34,205 bases of DNA from Spirochaetota bacterium (GTDB lineage Bacteria; Spirochaetota; UBA12135; COTS27; JAFLEE01). Of the stretch, positions 5,344 to 31,860 are shown in pieces. Made by a program: the position numbers and the translations under genes. The stretch lies in the NCBI GenBank assembly GCA_017302015.1, contig JAFLEE010000060.1, positions 1-34,205 of the forward strand. The letters are read 5' to 3'. The notes beneath the pieces are model-generated. The model made no database searches. It saw nothing but the letters and a program-made list of their open reading frames with translations, and was not told the DNA's origin. Each line of letters opens with the position of its first letter. Position 1 is the first letter of the stretch.

Positions 5344-8300
5344 ATGCGGGTGTTTGGTTCATACGTCGCGTATTTCCACCTAGTTTGGGCATGCTCGTTT
5401 CTCGCCCTTCACGGCGGCCTCGCCAAACGGGCCCAGGAGGGGGCGACGCAGCCCGCCGAGCTTATCCTCGTGCCCCAAGTCGGGAACACGTCCAGGGTGA
5501 AACGCGTGGAAGTTTCGGCAGACGGCCGAACCGCGGTGACCCTGGCGGGCGAGGCGAAATTATGGGACCTCCGGACCCGAAAAGAGGTGCGCACCTTCAA
5601 ACAAGCCTCCGAGATGTCGGATTTCGCGCTCTTGCCCGATGGCAGGAGCATGGTGGTGAGCCCCGCCGTGAAAGGAAGCGCGAACCGGCAAAATCCCGGC
5701 GATACCGCCCTGCGACATTATGATTTGGCAACCGGCCGGATTCTCCGGGAATTCAGCGGGCATACCTGGGCGGGCGCTTCCTTGGCGCTGAACGCAAGCG
5801 GGACGCATCTGGCGAGTTGCGCCGATCAACGGGCCCACCTGTGGGACCTCCGCGAGGGTACCCTGCTCGCGAGTTGGCCCGTGGAAGCGGGGGGCAAGTC
5901 GTTGGCCGTGCGGTCCGATGGAAAAGTCGTGGCGGTCTCTTCCTTTAAGGGGGCCCTGGTGCGGTTATGGGATCCGGCGGGGAATCGGACGATCCTCGAC
6001 CTACCCGCCTCCGCCCAGGATTCCAGGCTCGTAGAGCCTGAAAAAATCGGGTTCAGCGAGGACGGATCCCTGGTCTTCGGTTTCAGCCGCGTGTTCAGCA
6101 GGGACGCGGCGGGGTTCGATCATGTCCTCTACGTCTGGGACGCATCGAGCGGGAAATTGCGCACGCGCATGGCGCTGCAGGCCTCATCGCATCGGACCCA
6201 GAATTTCGTCGATTACGATTCGATTCGCCGCCGCTTCGTGGTCATCAAGGAAGGCGGGCGCGTCCTGGAGTCGTATGATCCCGTGACCGACAAGGCCACC
6301 CCCCGCGTTTTGAGCGCCTTGCGGCACGACGAGTCCGGGCGAAGCAGGGTGCTCGCGGGAGCCCTGTTGGCCGGCGACGCGGGCGTCCTGCTGGCCATCT
6401 CCGAAGGCGACTCGTTGTGGGGAAACGTCCTTTGCTCCATCGACTTCTCCACGCCTTCCCTCGTCAACCCCATGCACCCATCCCTGGATGTCTACTCCGA
6501 CCTGGCCATCGATACGGAAAACCGCTATGCCATGGCCTGGAATCGGGCGAATGCGGGAATCGCCCTTTGGAACTTTGAAACGGGCAGATTGGACGCCCGG
6601 ATCGCTTTGCCGGGAGGGGCCCAGCCGCTCAGCCACGCCCGATCGGGGGACGGCCAATCCGTCTATATCGCCGCCGAGGATTCGCTCCTGAAGTGGGACC
6701 TCGGCTCCAGGCGCATCACCCATCATTGGAAACTCGGTTGGACGCCGGCCAAGATCGTGGCGGATGGGGAGGCCGTTCTCTGCTATACCTACCTCCGGTC
6801 GGAGTATGGCGGGGGGGGCGAATATGTCGTCTTCCGGCTGGATGGCCGCACCGGGAGAATCGTCGCGCGCAGCGCCAAGGGATTCTACTCGGGCGACGAC
6901 CTCGCGCTTTCGCCGGATGGGAGCCGTTTGGCGTTCGCGGCGGGTTTCCGGATGCCGATTTTCGACGCGAAGACGCTCGCGTTGATCAAAGAAATCGACA
7001 TCGGCTCCTATGCCTACGGCGCCGTTTTCCTCTCCGATAACGCCACGGTTGCGCATCCCTGGGGCCGAGCGCTGCGGTTGATCGACACCGCGACGGGAGC
7101 GCGCACCCAATCGAAGTACGAGTACTCCGGGAACGTTCAAATCTCGGGGCGATCCGGTTTTTTCAGGGAAATCCGCCGCCCCGACCCGAACGATCCTTCG
7201 AGGTTGTCCGTGCATTTCCGGAGGCTTTCGGACGGGCAGGAGGTGGAGCGGAGCGCCTTGCCCGCGGGAGACCCGATCGCGCTTCCCTACCTCTACACGG
7301 CATCCGGACGCGATGGCGTGGCGCGTCGGAACCTGGTCAACGGGAACGTCGTGACGTTCCTCTCCGATTCCAAGAACGGCCATTGGGTGGCTTATGACCA
7401 TCGCGGCTTTTGGGATGGCTCCCTCCAGGGCGGGGAACTCCTGGCCATGGTGCAAAAAACCGGGGGCATCGCCGCCTTCCAGATCGATCAATTCGCCGTG
7501 CGCAATAACCGGCCGGACCGCATCCTCGAAAGCCTCGACACCACCAATGCGGAACGGCTGGAGTACTTTCGGGGGCTCTATCGGAAGAGGCTATCCCGGA
7601 TGGGGCTGGAAGAAAGCGGCCTCGACGCGGAGCGCCGCACGCCCCAGGTGGAACTCTGGGGCCGGGTCGGCGGGGGGCCGACCGAGCAGATCGGCATGCG
7701 GTTCCAGGCCGCCGGTTCACCGCTGGCGCGCTACCAGGTCTATGTGAACAATGTGCCGCTCTTCGGCGCCGATGGACGCGACTTCAGGCTCCTTCCCCCC
7801 TCCAATTTCCAGCAAAACGGGAACGTCGCGACGGTGATCCAAGAGGTGCCCCTCGCCACGGGCGCGAATAAAATCGAGTTCTCATGCCGCGACCGCCTCG
7901 GCCTCGAGAGTCACCGCTTTCCCCTGTTCGCGTTCCGTCCCGAGACGAGCGGGAGGGCGAAGCCCAACCTGTTTTTCCTGGGATTCGGCGTCTCGGACTA
8001 CGGGGATCCCTCGATCCGTGACTTGAAATACGCCGAGAAGGACGTGGTCGACTTGGAAGAGGCCTTCAAGGCCATGCAGGGGGGGAGATTCGAAAAGGTG
8101 CTGACGCGGGCGGTCCTCGGCCGGGAGGTCACGCGCCAAGCCATCGCGCGCGCCAGGGATTTCCTGCTGGCTTCCTCCGTGGAGGATACCCTCGTCCTGT
8201 TCATTTCCGGCCATGGCATCCAGGCGGGACGGGGGCCGGAATATTATTACGTCACGCAGGATGCGAGGCTGTCGGACCTGGAATCGACGGCGGCGCCCTT

Positions 8301-8817
8301 TGATCTGGTCGAAGCGCTGCTCCAAGGGGTCCCGGCGCAGCGGAAATTATTCCTCATGGATACCTGCGAGTCGGGCGAAGCCGACGAGGCGGGGGCGCGG
8401 AGCGGCCTCGCCGAGGCCTCGAGCAAGGGCCTCCATGCTCGGACCTTGGGCTTGGAGCAGACCCGGGCGTTGCGCATCGTGGGCCGCCAGGCGGCGCAAG
8501 CGTTCTCCGAACGGGACCGCTACATCCACAACGACCTACTACGCCGATCCGGGGCGATCGTTCTTTCCAGCAGCCGGGGGAACGAAGCGTCGCTCGAATC
8601 GGATGCGCTGCGCCAGGGCCTCTTCACGCATACCGTCCTCAAGGCCTTCCGGGAGAAGGCCTCCGCGGACCGCGACGGGAATGGGGTGCTCTCCGTGCGG
8701 GAATTGCGGTCGTTCGTCGAGGTCGAGGTGCCCCGGTTAGCCGAGTCGCTCCTCCCCGGTGCCCAGCAGCACCCGGTCGTCGACCGGGACAATCTCCACA
8801 TCGATTTCGGATTTTAG
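5344..8817 (+). CDS. Exported WD40-repeat protein with C-terminal caspase-like (peptidase C14) domain
   Basis: A 1157-residue protein with an N-terminal signal peptide or anchor (about 1-27). Residues about 45-640 contain degenerate WD40/beta-propeller blades, seen as AKLWDLRT, AHLWDLREG, VRLWDPAG, LYVWDASSG, IALWNFETG and LLKWDLGS. A short domain containing WVAYDHRGFWDG follows, then a beta-rich stretch (about 765-860), then the caspase-fold domain (about 873-1157). The catalytic dyad is visible: His957 in FISGHGI and Cys1008 in MDTCESGE. A DRDGNG motif near the C-terminus could bind calcium, which many metacaspase-type enzymes need. GGAGGG precedes the ATG. It stands alone on its strand. 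Family members cleave after basic residues or other specific sites; the target is unknown. A second caspase-fold gene lies at 30313-31860. Confidence 0.85.
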   Translation: MRVFGSYVAYFHLVWACSFLALHGGLAKRAQEGATQPAELILVPQVGNTSRVKRVEVSADGRTAVTLAGEAKLWDLRTRKEVRTFKQASEMSDFALLPDGRSMVVSPAVKGSANRQNPGDTALRHYDLATGRILREFSGHTWAGASLALNASGTHLASCADQRAHLWDLREGTLLASWPVEAGGKSLAVRSDGKVVAVSSFKGALVRLWDPAGNRTILDLPASAQDSRLVEPEKIGFSEDGSLVFGFSRVFSRDAAGFDHVLYVWDASSGKLRTRMALQASSHRTQNFVDYDSIRRRFVVIKEGGRVLESYDPVTDKATPRVLSALRHDESGRSRVLAGALLAGDAGVLLAISEGDSLWGNVLCSIDFSTPSLVNPMHPSLDVYSDLAIDTENRYAMAWNRANAGIALWNFETGRLDARIALPGGAQPLSHARSGDGQSVYIAAEDSLLKWDLGSRRITHHWKLGWTPAKIVADGEAVLCYTYLRSEYGGGGEYVVFRLDGRTGRIVARSAKGFYSGDDLALSPDGSRLAFAAGFRMPIFDAKTLALIKEIDIGSYAYGAVFLSDNATVAHPWGRALRLIDTATGARTQSKYEYSGNVQISGRSGFFREIRRPDPNDPSRLSVHFRRLSDGQEVERSALPAGDPIALPYLYTASGRDGVARRNLVNGNVVTFLSDSKNGHWVAYDHRGFWDGSLQGGELLAMVQKTGGIAAFQIDQFAVRNNRPDRILESLDTTNAERLEYFRGLYRKRLSRMGLEESGLDAERRTPQVELWGRVGGGPTEQIGMRFQAAGSPLARYQVYVNNVPLFGADGRDFRLLPPSNFQQNGNVATVIQEVPLATGANKIEFSCRDRLGLESHRFPLFAFRPETSGRAKPNLFFLGFGVSDYGDPSIRDLKYAEKDVVDLEEAFKAMQGGRFEKVLTRAVLGREVTRQAIARARDFLLASSVEDTLVLFISGHGIQAGRGPEYYYVTQDARLSDLESTAAPFDLVEALLQGVPAQRKLFLMDTCESGEADEAGARSGLAEASSKGLHARTLGLEQTRALRIVGRQAAQAFSERDRYIHNDLLRRSGAIVLSSSRGNEASLESDALRQGLFTHTVLKAFREKASADRDGNGVLSVRELRSFVEVEVPRLAESLLPGAQQHPVVDRDNLHIDFGF

Positions 8818-28866: not shown

Positions 28867-28980
28867 GAAGCCTCCGGGGAAAAAAAACGGGAATCAGGTG
28901 CAAAAAATGGCCGCGCCGGTGATCCAATCCCATGGGCCCCTCCCTCCTCCCGATCCCGCTTCGATGCGGCGGGCGCTGCG

Positions 28981-29502
28981 ATGAGCGAGCCCATCAGTCA
29001 CGGGGAACTCGCCCGGCTCTACCGCCAGTACGGCCCCATGGTCCTGCGGCGCTGCCGGTTCCTCCTGCGTGACGAGGAAAAAGCCATGGACGCCCTCCAG
29101 GATGTCTTCGTGGAATTGGTGCGCCACCGCGACCGCCTGCGCGCCGATTTCCCCTCGAGCCTCCTCTACCGCATCGCCACCCACGTCTGCCTCAATCTCC
29201 TGCGCGCCGCGCGGCGCAAGGGCGCCCTCCAAGAGAACGAGGCTTTCGCCGGCGCCCCCAGCCACGAGAGCGGCTACGAACGGGCGGAGGACCGCCTGCT
29301 CCTCGACGCCGTCTTCGAGGCGGAGGATTCCGATACCCGGGCCTTGGCCCTCATGTACCACGGCGACGGCATGACCCTCGACGAACTCGCCCAAGTCTTC
29401 CGACTCTCCATCTCCGGCGTGCGCAAGCGGCTACTGAAATTCCAGGAGCGGGCCTCGCAGCGGCTGCGGACCCCCGTCCCCAAGGAGCTCGGCCATGGCT
29501 GA
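28981..29502 (+). CDS. ECF-type RNA polymerase sigma factor
   Basis: A 173-residue sigma-70 family protein with region 2 (about 10-80: LYRQYGPMVLRRC, EEKAMDALQDVFVELV, SLLYRIATHVCLNLLR) and region 4 (about 118-165: ALALMYHGDGMTLDELAQVFRL then SISGVRKRLLKF), without regions 1 and 3, as in ECF sigma factors. The ATG at 28981 has only a weak GGCGGG upstream. The stop overlaps the start of the anti-sigma gene by eight bases, so the two are coupled. It diverges from the peptide transporter with shared promoter elements. It would direct polymerase to a small regulon, perhaps including its own operon. Specificity class cannot be set from sequence by eye. Confidence 0.88.
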   Translation: MSEPISHGELARLYRQYGPMVLRRCRFLLRDEEKAMDALQDVFVELVRHRDRLRADFPSSLLYRIATHVCLNLLRAARRKGALQENEAFAGAPSHESGYERAEDRLLLDAVFEAEDSDTRALALMYHGDGMTLDELAQVFRLSISGVRKRLLKFQERASQRLRTPVPKELGHG

Positions 29503-30316
29503 GAAACTCTCGAACCTGCTTTTGGAACGCTTCCTGCTGGGCGAGGTGACGCCCCAGGAAAAAACGCGGGTCGAGGCCGCCTTGAACTCGGATCCCGAAA
29601 CCGCGCGCCGCCTCGATGCGCTTCGCCGCGAGACCGAGGCGTTCTTCCAGGCCCATCCCGAGGGCCAGGTCGTCCCGGGCATCGAGGCGCGCCTGGAACG
29701 CGCCCAGCTCTCCGGTGTCGAGGGGAAGAAGCGCTTCCCCATCCAGGCTTGGCTCATCCCCGCGCTCACCCTGCTCCTCGTCGTCGGCCTCGCGCCCCTT
29801 TGGATGGACCGGGGGAGCACCGACGCCATCGTGCCCATTTCGCCGGGTGTCCCCTATCCGGAGGGTTCCCGCGCGTTTGCGATGGAGCGCTACAAGGGCG
29901 GGGATGAGATCGCGCTCTACCGGCAAGGGGCTCCGGGGTCGGAGCCCGAGCGCCTCACGAATAGGCAATCGGTGCGCCCGGGGGATCGCCTACAATTGGC
30001 CTACACGTCGGCGGGATCCCCCCAAGGGGTCCTCTTCTCCGTGGACTCCGCCGGGGTCTTGACCTGGCACTATCCCGCCAAGGCCCCCGAAGCCCGCGCT
30101 CCCCTGCCCAAACTCGTGATGGGAAAAAGGCAATTTTTGGGGGATTCCTACGAACTCGACGCCACGGCGGGGGAAGAGCGCTTCTATCTCGTCACCTGTG
30201 CGGTCTCGGTGGCCCCCGCTCTCATCTTGGGCGGCGCCGCCCGCCTCGCGCGGAGTACCGACGCCCAATTCCCCGGCTGCGTGGTCACCGTATTCTCGGT
30301 GGTGAAGCGGCCTTGA
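29495..30316 (+). CDS. Membrane anti-sigma factor with periplasmic DUF4384-like domain
   Basis: A 273-residue protein. The N-terminal cytoplasmic part (about 1-75) has LLERFLLGEVTPQEKTRVEAAL and DPETARRLDALRRETEAF, the helical layout of anti-sigma domains, but no H-x3-C-x2-C zinc motif. A single membrane helix covers about 81-104 (FPIQAWLIPALTLLLVVGLA). The outer part (about 110-273) is beta-rich and contains RPGDRLQLAY, GVLFSVDSAGVLTWHYP and a FYLV strand, resembling DUF4384-type sensor domains. It overlaps the sigma gene upstream by eight bases and the caspase gene downstream by four. The simplest role is to hold the sigma factor at the membrane until the outer domain senses a ligand or is cut. 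Partner assignment is inferred from gene order. Confidence 0.76.
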   Translation: MAEKLSNLLLERFLLGEVTPQEKTRVEAALNSDPETARRLDALRRETEAFFQAHPEGQVVPGIEARLERAQLSGVEGKKRFPIQAWLIPALTLLLVVGLAPLWMDRGSTDAIVPISPGVPYPEGSRAFAMERYKGGDEIALYRQGAPGSEPERLTNRQSVRPGDRLQLAYTSAGSPQGVLFSVDSAGVLTWHYPAKAPEARAPLPKLVMGKRQFLGDSYELDATAGEERFYLVTCAVSVAPALILGGAARLARSTDAQFPGCVVTVFSVVKRP

Positions 30317-31860
30317 GTTACCGGGCCGTACCCCTCCTCTTCGCCGTCCTGCTGGCCGGATGGCTGGCGGCCGAGGAGGGCCGGGGCCCGGCCTTGCGGC
30401 GCTCGGCGCTCTTCGTCGGCGCCCACGACGGTGGCCCCGACCGGGAACCCCTGCGCCACGCCCACGCCGACGCGGAGACGCTCTCGCGGGTCTTCCTCGA
30501 ACTCGGGGGGGTCGCGACCAACGACGGCGAACTCCTCCTCGAGCCCAGCGCCCTCGCCCTGCTTTCCAAACTCGACGCGGTCCACCGCCGCCTCGCCGAA
30601 GAGCGGGGGAAGGCGGCGCGCAGCGAGTTCGTCTTCTATTATTCGGGGCATTCCGACGAGAAGGGCCTCCTCCTCGGCCGCTCGCGCATCGAGTACGGCG
30701 AACTCCGCCGCCGCATAGGCGAGCTCCCCGCCGACTTGCGCCTGGTCATCCTCGATTCGTGCGCCTCGGGGGCCTTCACCCGGGCCAAGGGCGGCGTGAA
30801 GCGCCGGGCCTTCCTCTCCGATCCCGCCCTTTCCGCCCGGGGGTTCGCCGCCCTCACCTCCAGTTCGCCCGGCGAACTCTCCATGGAATCCGACCGCCTC
30901 GGGGGCTCGTTCTTCACCCTGGCCCTGGTGGCGGGCCTGCGCGGCGGCGCCGATAGCCGGGGCGCCGGGCGCGTGAACCTCGACGAAGCCTACCAGTACG
31001 CCTACCGCGAAACGGTGGAGAAGACCGCGGCCCTGGGGCGCGCCGCCCAGCACCCCCTCTTCGAGGTCCAACTCGCCGGGGCGGGGGAGGTGGTGCTCAC
31101 CGACTTGCGCGACCACGCGGCGACCCTGGTCCTCGAGCCGGCCCTCGAGGGCCTCGTCACGGTGCGCAGCGGGGTCGGGCGGCTGGTCTCCCAGGCGCGC
31201 AAAGAGAAGGGGCAGGAACTCGCCCAGGCGCTCGTGCCGGGAAATTATGCGATTCGAATAGATAAATCAGGCGAGGCGTGGACGGCGGATGCGCTCCTGG
31301 AGGGCCCGGCGCGCCTGCGGTTGGGCCCCCCGGCGTTCACCCGGCTCTCCAACCGCGACCCGGTTCGCGACCCCCGGGCCATGCGGGCGGTGAACACCGG
31401 GGGCCAATTGCTCCTGGGCTCCGTGGCCGGCGGGGTGGGGGCCGCGGGGGGCACCTTCCTCTTCGGCCTTTTAGGCCACGCCCTCGACCCCGCCGCGCCC
31501 ATCGGGATCTACTCCACCCTCAACGCCCCGGTGGCCCTGGGTCTCCTCGGCTTCCTCGCCGGCGACATCGTGCTCTCCGCGGTGGCGGTCAACGGGGTCG
31601 GCGCCCTGGGCGATCATCGGGCGCCCCCGGGCGCGGCCTTCATCGGGGCCTCCGTGGGGACGGCCGTCGCGCTCCCGCTCATCCTCGCCATCGCCTACCG
31701 CAAGAGCGGGGTCGAGTTGCTCCCGGCGGTCTTGCCCGCCTTCCTCCCCGGCCTGGCCGCGACCCTGGCCTTCCAGATCGGGAAGAAACCGCTCCCCTTC
31801 GTCGGCTATGTCTTGCCGACGGGGTCGGGATGGCAGGCGGGCATCGTCGCTTCCTATTAA
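30313..31860 (+). CDS. Exported caspase-fold peptidase with hydrophobic C-terminal region
   Basis: A 515-residue protein. It starts at TTG 30313, overlapping the anti-sigma stop (TTGA), with a signal peptide (AVPLLFAVLLAGWLAAE). The caspase-like domain (about 30-260) has His113 in YYSGHSDEKG and Cys150 in VILDSCASGAF, the expected dyad order and spacing for peptidase C14. A beta-rich linker follows (about 265-345). The last 165 residues hold several glycine-rich hydrophobic stretches (GGQLLLGSVAGGVGAAGG and others), probably membrane-inserted. This places the protease on the same side as the outer domain of the anti-sigma factor. Gene order suggests that it cleaves, or is regulated by, that protein; this is inference. 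Its stop overlaps the convergent AraC stop (TTAA), leaving no room for a terminator. Confidence 0.82.
   Translation: MSYRAVPLLFAVLLAGWLAAEEGRGPALRRSALFVGAHDGGPDREPLRHAHADAETLSRVFLELGGVATNDGELLLEPSALALLSKLDAVHRRLAEERGKAARSEFVFYYSGHSDEKGLLLGRSRIEYGELRRRIGELPADLRLVILDSCASGAFTRAKGGVKRRAFLSDPALSARGFAALTSSSPGELSMESDRLGGSFFTLALVAGLRGGADSRGAGRVNLDEAYQYAYRETVEKTAALGRAAQHPLFEVQLAGAGEVVLTDLRDHAATLVLEPALEGLVTVRSGVGRLVSQARKEKGQELAQALVPGNYAIRIDKSGEAWTADALLEGPARLRLGPPAFTRLSNRDPVRDPRAMRAVNTGGQLLLGSVAGGVGAAGGTFLFGLLGHALDPAAPIGIYSTLNAPVALGLLGFLAGDIVLSAVAVNGVGALGDHRAPPGAAFIGASVGTAVALPLILAIAYRKSGVELLPAVLPAFLPGLAATLAFQIGKKPLPFVGYVLPTGSGWQAGIVASY

Follow-up and report, generated by a model that had tools for sequence, protein, structure and literature searches.

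The window analyzed here, a 34,205-nucleotide stretch of a Spirochaetota genome (GenBank assembly GCA_017302015.1, contig JAFLEE010000060.1), carries three open frames on the forward strand that overlap by 8 and 4 bases. They encode an ECF-type sigma factor (P0001, positions 28981 to 29502, ATG start, 173 amino acids, regions 2 and 4), a predicted membrane anti-sigma factor (P0002, 29495 to 30316, 273 amino acids), and an exported caspase-fold peptidase (P0003, 30313 to 31860, TTG start, 515 amino acids). A first-pass annotation had proposed an overlapping three-gene operon, and its coordinates, single strand, and overlaps all check out. The ECF-type sigma of that annotation was likewise borne out, both by a match to Sigma70_r2 (E value of 5.9e-14) and by a score of 63.2 bits against TIGR02937, the sigma70-ECF superfamily model, for which the cutoff is 42.9. 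Regions r2 and r4 are matched by members of the sigma family, and P0001 is 25 to 49% identical to 32 sigma factors from operons of this type.

How P0002 is built was predicted by AlphaFold2. Four N-terminal helices precede a single transmembrane helix (residues 83 to 103, positions 29741 to 29803 on the forward strand, with a hydropathy segment at residues 86 to 104), after which a disordered linker leads to a beta-sandwich that begins at residue 138 (pLDDT of 85). The modeled arrangement of an N-terminal helical domain and one transmembrane helix is that of a class I membrane anti-sigma factor, and sigma binding is predicted. Consistent with such a role, residues 9 to 100 weakly resemble anti-sigma models (1e-7), as do 20 of 47 family members. 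An HxxxCxxC or other His-Cys zinc motif was sought in P0002 and is absent, which places the protein outside the zinc-binding anti-sigma factors (zf-HC2), a model matched by only 2 of the 47 relatives. The outer domain (residues 136 to 273, positions 29900 to 30313, forward strand), a putative sensor, appears Ig-like in the model and in a fold search. Pfam scanning of P0002 itself returned no hit, not even to DUF4384 (PF14326) at its gathering score, and 24 of the 47 relatives match DUF4384 at E values up to 0.1; we call the domain DUF4384-related only. Because the fold search retrieved generic Ig-like matches alone (best Z score of 8.5), no function is assigned to it. The earlier description of a zinc-less anti-sigma factor with one membrane helix and a DUF4384-like outer domain thus holds.

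P0003 belongs to peptidase family C14 by its domain profile (Peptidase_C14, above the Pfam cutoff) and by a His113/Cys150 dyad kept in all 47 relatives, and its proteolytic activity is predicted. His113 lies at positions 30649 to 30651 and the D148-S149-C150 motif, with D and C likewise in 47 of 47, at positions 30754 to 30762, both on the forward strand. The N terminus resembles a signal peptide of about 20 amino acids (positions 30313 to 30372, forward strand; hydropathy segment at residues 1 to 19, model helix at residues 5 to 23). A search of the PDB with the single sequence gave no hit, a profile search does retrieve metacaspases, and the model of residues 25 to 267 matched Arabidopsis metacaspase 4 (AtMC4) with a Z score of 21.2 and human caspase-7 with a Z score of 20.7. 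The exported caspase-fold protein of the first-pass annotation was therefore recovered with its signal peptide and dyad. P0003 is not, however, one of the EACC1-associated caspases (NF047832), as it scored 59.9 bits against a curated cutoff of 140.

Which residues the caspase might cut after is suggested by its pocket. D148, two residues before the catalytic cysteine, and S111 are invariant in the 47 caspases and correspond to AtMC4 Asp137, through the shared D-S-C, and AtMC4 Ser84, through an aligned Y-S-G-H. In AtMC4, Asp137 and Ser84 form an acidic pocket for Lys225, and the enzyme cuts itself after that lysine, which lies in the p20-p10 linker (PMC7206013). AtMC4 shares its fold and the D-S-C motif with the window caspase, but it is calcium dependent, is cytosolic, and has no sigma factor signaling partner. 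We note that P0003 carries the acidic S1 residue typical of Lys/Arg-cutting metacaspases, and Lys/Arg specificity is a candidate property of the family.

The sigma/anti-sigma/caspase operon is genuine and not a local peculiarity. When contigs were scanned across genomes with the caspase, 31 relatives were found, and sigma and anti-sigma genes lay directly upstream in 24. Among the remainder, L018 and L032 end at contig edges, L038 is without a detected sigma gene, L010 has neither partner despite 1.3 kb of visible sequence, and L033 to L035 are rearranged, with sigma downstream of the caspase. Within the Spirochaetota, the caspase is present in 54 of 393 genomes (E ≤ 1e-20), and all 56 caspase loci fetched from that phylum have both partners directly upstream, although both are short in L080. 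The reverse search of 198 Spirochaetota genomes gave the same picture, as 33 of 34 full-length anti-sigma factors (E < 1e-40) adjoin such a caspase, and the 34th, in genome G182, stops 6 bases short of a contig edge. In the phylum of L013 (Polyangia), most anti-sigma matches, even those of 35 to 60 bits, are flanked by sigma and caspase genes, and the gene order is common to Myxococcota and other phyla as well. Gene order conservation is far above chance, and linkage is near-obligate in both directions. The first-pass annotation had suggested looking for the trio in other genomes and held that caspases found mostly without the pair would speak against a functional link; the same order recurs across several bacterial phyla instead. 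Moreover, L294, L305, and L310 each combine a caspase with a DUF4384 domain in a single polypeptide (two above the Pfam cutoff and L310 just below it), and thus a physical link is supported.

The anti-sigma factor and the caspase share a short motif. In P0002, R132-Y-K134-G135 (positions 29888 to 29899, forward strand) lies just outside the membrane where the disordered linker ends, in modeled coil with the linker on one side and the first strand on the other, and is a candidate site of caspase cleavage or of pseudosubstrate binding. Across 47 anti-sigma factors with a mean identity of 25%, K134 and G135 are invariant and R132 is found in 46. In P0003, R157-A-K159-G160-G161 (positions 30781 to 30795, forward strand) falls in the loop after the catalytic cysteine and is a candidate self-processing site. 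K159 and G160 are kept in 47 of 47 family members and R157 in 40 of 47; K159 lies nine residues past the cysteine, and K159 to G161 form the edge of a flexible loop (mean pLDDT of 51 for residues 161 to 170). The R-x-K-G-G loop motif was absent from the other caspases examined.

Conservation of the anti-sigma motif follows linkage to the caspase. Over all fetched loci, K-G is kept in 135 of 153 caspase-linked sensor domains versus 1 of 35 unlinked ones (Fisher P = 4e-23, with relatedness not removed and the loci phylogenetically nonindependent because the unlinked controls are mostly other subfamilies). Of the 18 linked exceptions, at least 3 (L012, L219, and L244) are alignment errors, with R-x-K-G in fact present. 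K-G is missing from L212 and L216, close sequence relatives without a caspase or an anti-sigma domain, and R-x-K-G is missing from the anti-sigma factor that follows sigma in the rearranged L033 to L035. One locus, L236, has an R-G motif with no caspase within 3 kb. Variants in linked proteins include R-G, K-A, and K-S and are compatible with a Lys/Arg-cutting enzyme. Covariation between the two K-G motifs was sought and not found, as the caspase loop stays K-G when the anti-sigma factor drifts to R-G or K-A, and K-G is also retained in the caspase loops of L137 and L141, where this anti-sigma factor is absent. L128, with LLKG in both proteins, is one suggestive case of covariation. R-x-K-G could act in binding and not in cutting.

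Most operons with a close sigma factor have a common promoter, GTRACAC-N15-GTGTTA. An unsupervised search for word pairs upstream of 48 sigma genes found 12 paired occurrences versus at most 4 in shuffled sequences, and the refined matrix scored about 34 of the 48 operons near or above the 99% null, the matrix having been fitted on those same 48 sequences. Separate Myxococcota operons, nearly all outside the fitting set (L193 is L013, which was fitted, and L194 is L012), exceeded the 99% null in 21 of 24 cases with a spacer of always 15 when sigma was close and in 1 of 37 when sigma was distant. Promoter sites thus follow the sigma subfamily, as autoregulation predicts. The two boxes are partly complementary, and a dimeric operator was considered; we rejected that reading in favor of a promoter because the spacer is fixed, conservation is one-sided, and Myxococcota sites include GTGTTGA and GTGTTCC. 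Upstream of the window operon, no promoter above chance was found, the candidate there being the weak and degenerate GTGCAAA-N14-GTGATCC (positions 28898 to 28925, forward strand), which scored 2.3, below the null median of 4.6. The genome of the window has no exact match to GTRACAC-N15-GTGTTA, and a second copy of the trio in that genome has a good site (score of 17.1). Whole-genome searches of 20 genomes gave 28 matches versus 3 for a reversed control. Outside the operon, matches lay upstream of MotA/TolQ/ExbB genes in 4 genomes and of genes for TonB-plug proteins in 2 genomes, and further linked genes encode outer-membrane-barrel-like proteins, an ABC ATPase, and secreted proteins.

How the three proteins might work together is suggested by the operon, its conservation, the topology, the motifs, the promoter, and the downstream genes, each of which is directly supported. 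We somewhat favor an autoregulated transmembrane signaling module in which the caspase is a site-1-type protease, and from these parts we infer cleavage, its site, its trigger, and a site-2 step. The ECF sigma would be bound in the cytoplasm by the helical domain of the anti-sigma factor, whose single transmembrane helix would cross the inner membrane and whose linker would end in R-x-K-G, just ahead of the Ig-like outer domain. The caspase, once exported, may dock at or near that outer domain and probably processes itself first, at R-x-K-G-G in the post-cysteine loop. Once triggered, it would cut the anti-sigma factor after Lys134, and an M50 site-2 protease would then act on the leftover stub, such that sigma is freed to transcribe its own operon and envelope genes. 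An M50 (RseP-type) protease gene, the site-2 component of regulated intramembrane proteolysis, is present in the genome. The first-pass annotation had suggested that a caspase cleaves the anti-sigma factor instead of the usual site-1 and site-2 proteases. Regulated proteolysis is indeed the best reading because of the shared R-x-K-G, the metacaspase-type S1 acid, and the caspase-linked conservation of the motif, but replacement of both proteases was too strong a claim because the caspase could replace site-1 only and the M50 protease is encoded. That the same pathway is widespread, with self-activation at R-x-K-G-G, an anti-sigma cut at R-x-K-G, and a caspase in place of the DegS- or Prc-type first protease, is a plausible but tentative extension.

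The strongest rival holds that R-x-K-G is never cut. Instead, the motif would fill the caspase active site while the inner domain holds sigma, such that the anti-sigma factor restrains both partners until a signal frees them, after which other envelope proteins would be the targets of the caspase. Such a brake has a precedent, as Lys225 of AtMC4 lies uncut between the catalytic residues before calcium activation (PMC7206013), and it would suit a motif that adjoins a folded domain of a family fused to caspases elsewhere, as well as the K-G retained in caspase loops where this anti-sigma factor is absent. Sigma release would then need a separate protease or a conformational route, however, and the motif lies where site-1 cuts usually fall, closing a disordered linker next to a single transmembrane helix. 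We consider the brake unlikely. Perhaps the motif simply caps this subfamily of outer domains and its match to the caspase is coincidental, which might explain why it abuts the first strand and why the two motifs do not covary. Unlinked DUF4384-like domains lack it, though, close relatives L212 and L216 included, and we find a purely structural cap quite improbable.

Alternatively, the caspase might be output only, a surface-bound processing enzyme made by the regulon while another protease drives the sigma/anti-sigma pair. Its gene does sit within an autoregulated operon, and most caspase relatives bear surface repeats or barrels, but linkage that is near-obligate and one-to-one, together with motif conservation specific to that linkage, makes an output-only role improbable. 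Finally, the first-pass annotation had also suggested, as a caspase fold might, a sigma system that guards a death-type protease. PADLOC defense-system models matched none of the three proteins, and in other genomes the promoter sites sit ahead of exbB and of TonB-plug, outer-membrane, and transporter genes. A death or defense module with a suicidal protease is thus not supported, and we regard it as very improbable.

The proposed site-1 role for the caspase has relatives among known systems. In sigma-E signaling by RseA, DegS, and RseP, regulated intramembrane proteolysis starts with a first cut on the outer side, made by DegS, a PDZ trypsin-type protease. The trio resembles that system in its membrane anti-sigma factor, its envelope stress logic, its M50 protease, and what would be an outer-side first cut, but a caspase from the same operon would take the place of DegS. 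The first-pass annotation drew a parallel to the CRISPR-linked CalpL/CalpT/CalpS, in which a SAVED/Lon-type protease frees a sigma factor; the logic of protease-driven release stands, but CalpL is not a caspase. A closer parallel is type III-E CRISPR Csx29/Csx30/CASP-sigma, in which a caspase-fold protease cuts a sigma inhibitor, with sigma release proposed and with positive autoregulation (PMC10028731). That protease, however, is a cytoplasmic, RNA-guided CHAT protein with no membrane step, and the trio, without a PADLOC match, lies outside the CRISPR-linked protease/sigma systems (CASP and CalpL). ECF54, with CHAT/subtilase neighbors, also places a caspase-like protease near an ECF sigma but has no anti-sigma factor, and proteolysis was proposed to act on sigma itself (PMC8999054). 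By analogy, the trio may work like RseA/DegS and Csx29/Csx30, yet it belongs to neither.

The link between sigma and metacaspase genes was noted in 2012, when sigma-70/metacaspase operons were reported, four in M. xanthus and others in Anaeromyxobacter, Haliangium, Sorangium, Ralstonia, and Fibrobacter (Asplund-Samuelsson 2012, PMC3501461). Like the trio, those operons join sigma and a caspase homolog; the text of the paper names no anti-sigma factor, and its passages on them offer no topology, motif, promoter, or mechanism. A search of the literature outside subscription journals and the ECF classification paper found no description of the trio, motif, or promoter. A large branch of bacterial caspases, the role of which is largely obscure, gains a dedicated substrate, a four-residue site, and a specificity, all of them candidates, as well as a promoter and promoter-linked envelope genes. 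If the proposal is true, bacterial caspases would have a concrete role, testable with a few mutants and one cleavage assay, and a caspase would join the proteases that drive transmembrane sigma signaling, separate from cell death and CRISPR.

FecI/FecR/FecA cell-surface signaling also joins a sigma factor, a membrane anti-sigma factor, and an outer membrane protein, and genes linked to the trio promoter include TonB/ExbB types. Unlike FecA, however, the outer membrane partner of the trio bears a caspase, and Pfam scans gave no FecR match. Among 47 caspase family members, an LA_2272 surface repeat was found in 28 and the VC2662 family in 29, and most relatives shorter than 660 residues finish in sequence that resembles an outer membrane barrel and has an aromatic last residue. 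In a caspase-driven pathway, the signal in most relatives would plausibly be read at the surface repeat or outer membrane barrel that is fused to the caspase and tethers it. The hydrophobic C terminus noted at first pass is genuine, with four helical, membrane-anchor-like segments (residues 366 to 485, positions 31408 to 31767, forward strand, overlapping residues 359 to 481, which are modeled without confidence), but it is specific to the window copy and replaces the barrel of the relatives. The earlier proposal that protease and sensor domain share one side of the membrane is supported, as both are placed outside the inner membrane with a helical anchor and a barrel alike. We note that the window caspase is thus unlike most of its relatives in having a helical membrane anchor and neither surface repeats nor an outer-membrane-type barrel tether.

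The promoter recognized in front of the trio operons also occurs elsewhere. In several genomes (L320, L326, L327, L332, L333 and L334), this sigma-type promoter lies upstream of exbB/tolQ-type genes and of genes for TonB-plug proteins, and we take this placement as a lead, one that may point to the signal or the output of the system. Another copy of the promoter lies immediately 3' of the caspase gene at a further locus, L343 (G014:C113:6551), and the gene that follows it encodes a small outer-membrane-barrel-like protein similar to the barrel part of the caspase. Moreover, the source genome of the window encodes a second sigma/anti-sigma/caspase trio (L039, G000:C75:33000-45000). The caspase of that trio (961 aa; 4226-7111 of L039) is longer than the window caspase, and, in contrast to the window copy, the trio has a promoter that matches the family consensus (GTRACAC-N15-GTGTTA) well.

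The architecture of the caspases and of their operons varies. In some family caspases (L123 and L181), the barrel is exchanged for other modules; that of L181 has a long extension with kelch-like repeats, and CsgG, LpoB, and kelch domains are found among the matches of the caspase family. Loci L033, L034, and L035 form a rearranged branch in which the caspase is followed by a lipoprotein-like gene, the sigma factor, and an anti-sigma-like gene that lacks the R-x-K-G motif. At L080 (G310:C1), short frames for a sigma factor (103 aa) and an anti-sigma factor (124 aa) lie upstream of an intact caspase, and the short frames possibly reflect frameshift or decay.

Caspases of other kinds are also present. 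The window itself encodes a second caspase, unrelated to that of the trio (5344-8817, forward strand). This protein of 1157 aa combines a WD40 propeller at the N terminus with a caspase domain at the C terminus. Quite different caspases also adjoin genes for DUF4384, the domain related to the outer domain of the anti-sigma factor (L041, G000:C76:46961-48521; L048 with L262; L047 with L268), and the source genome of the window is among the genomes with such pairs.
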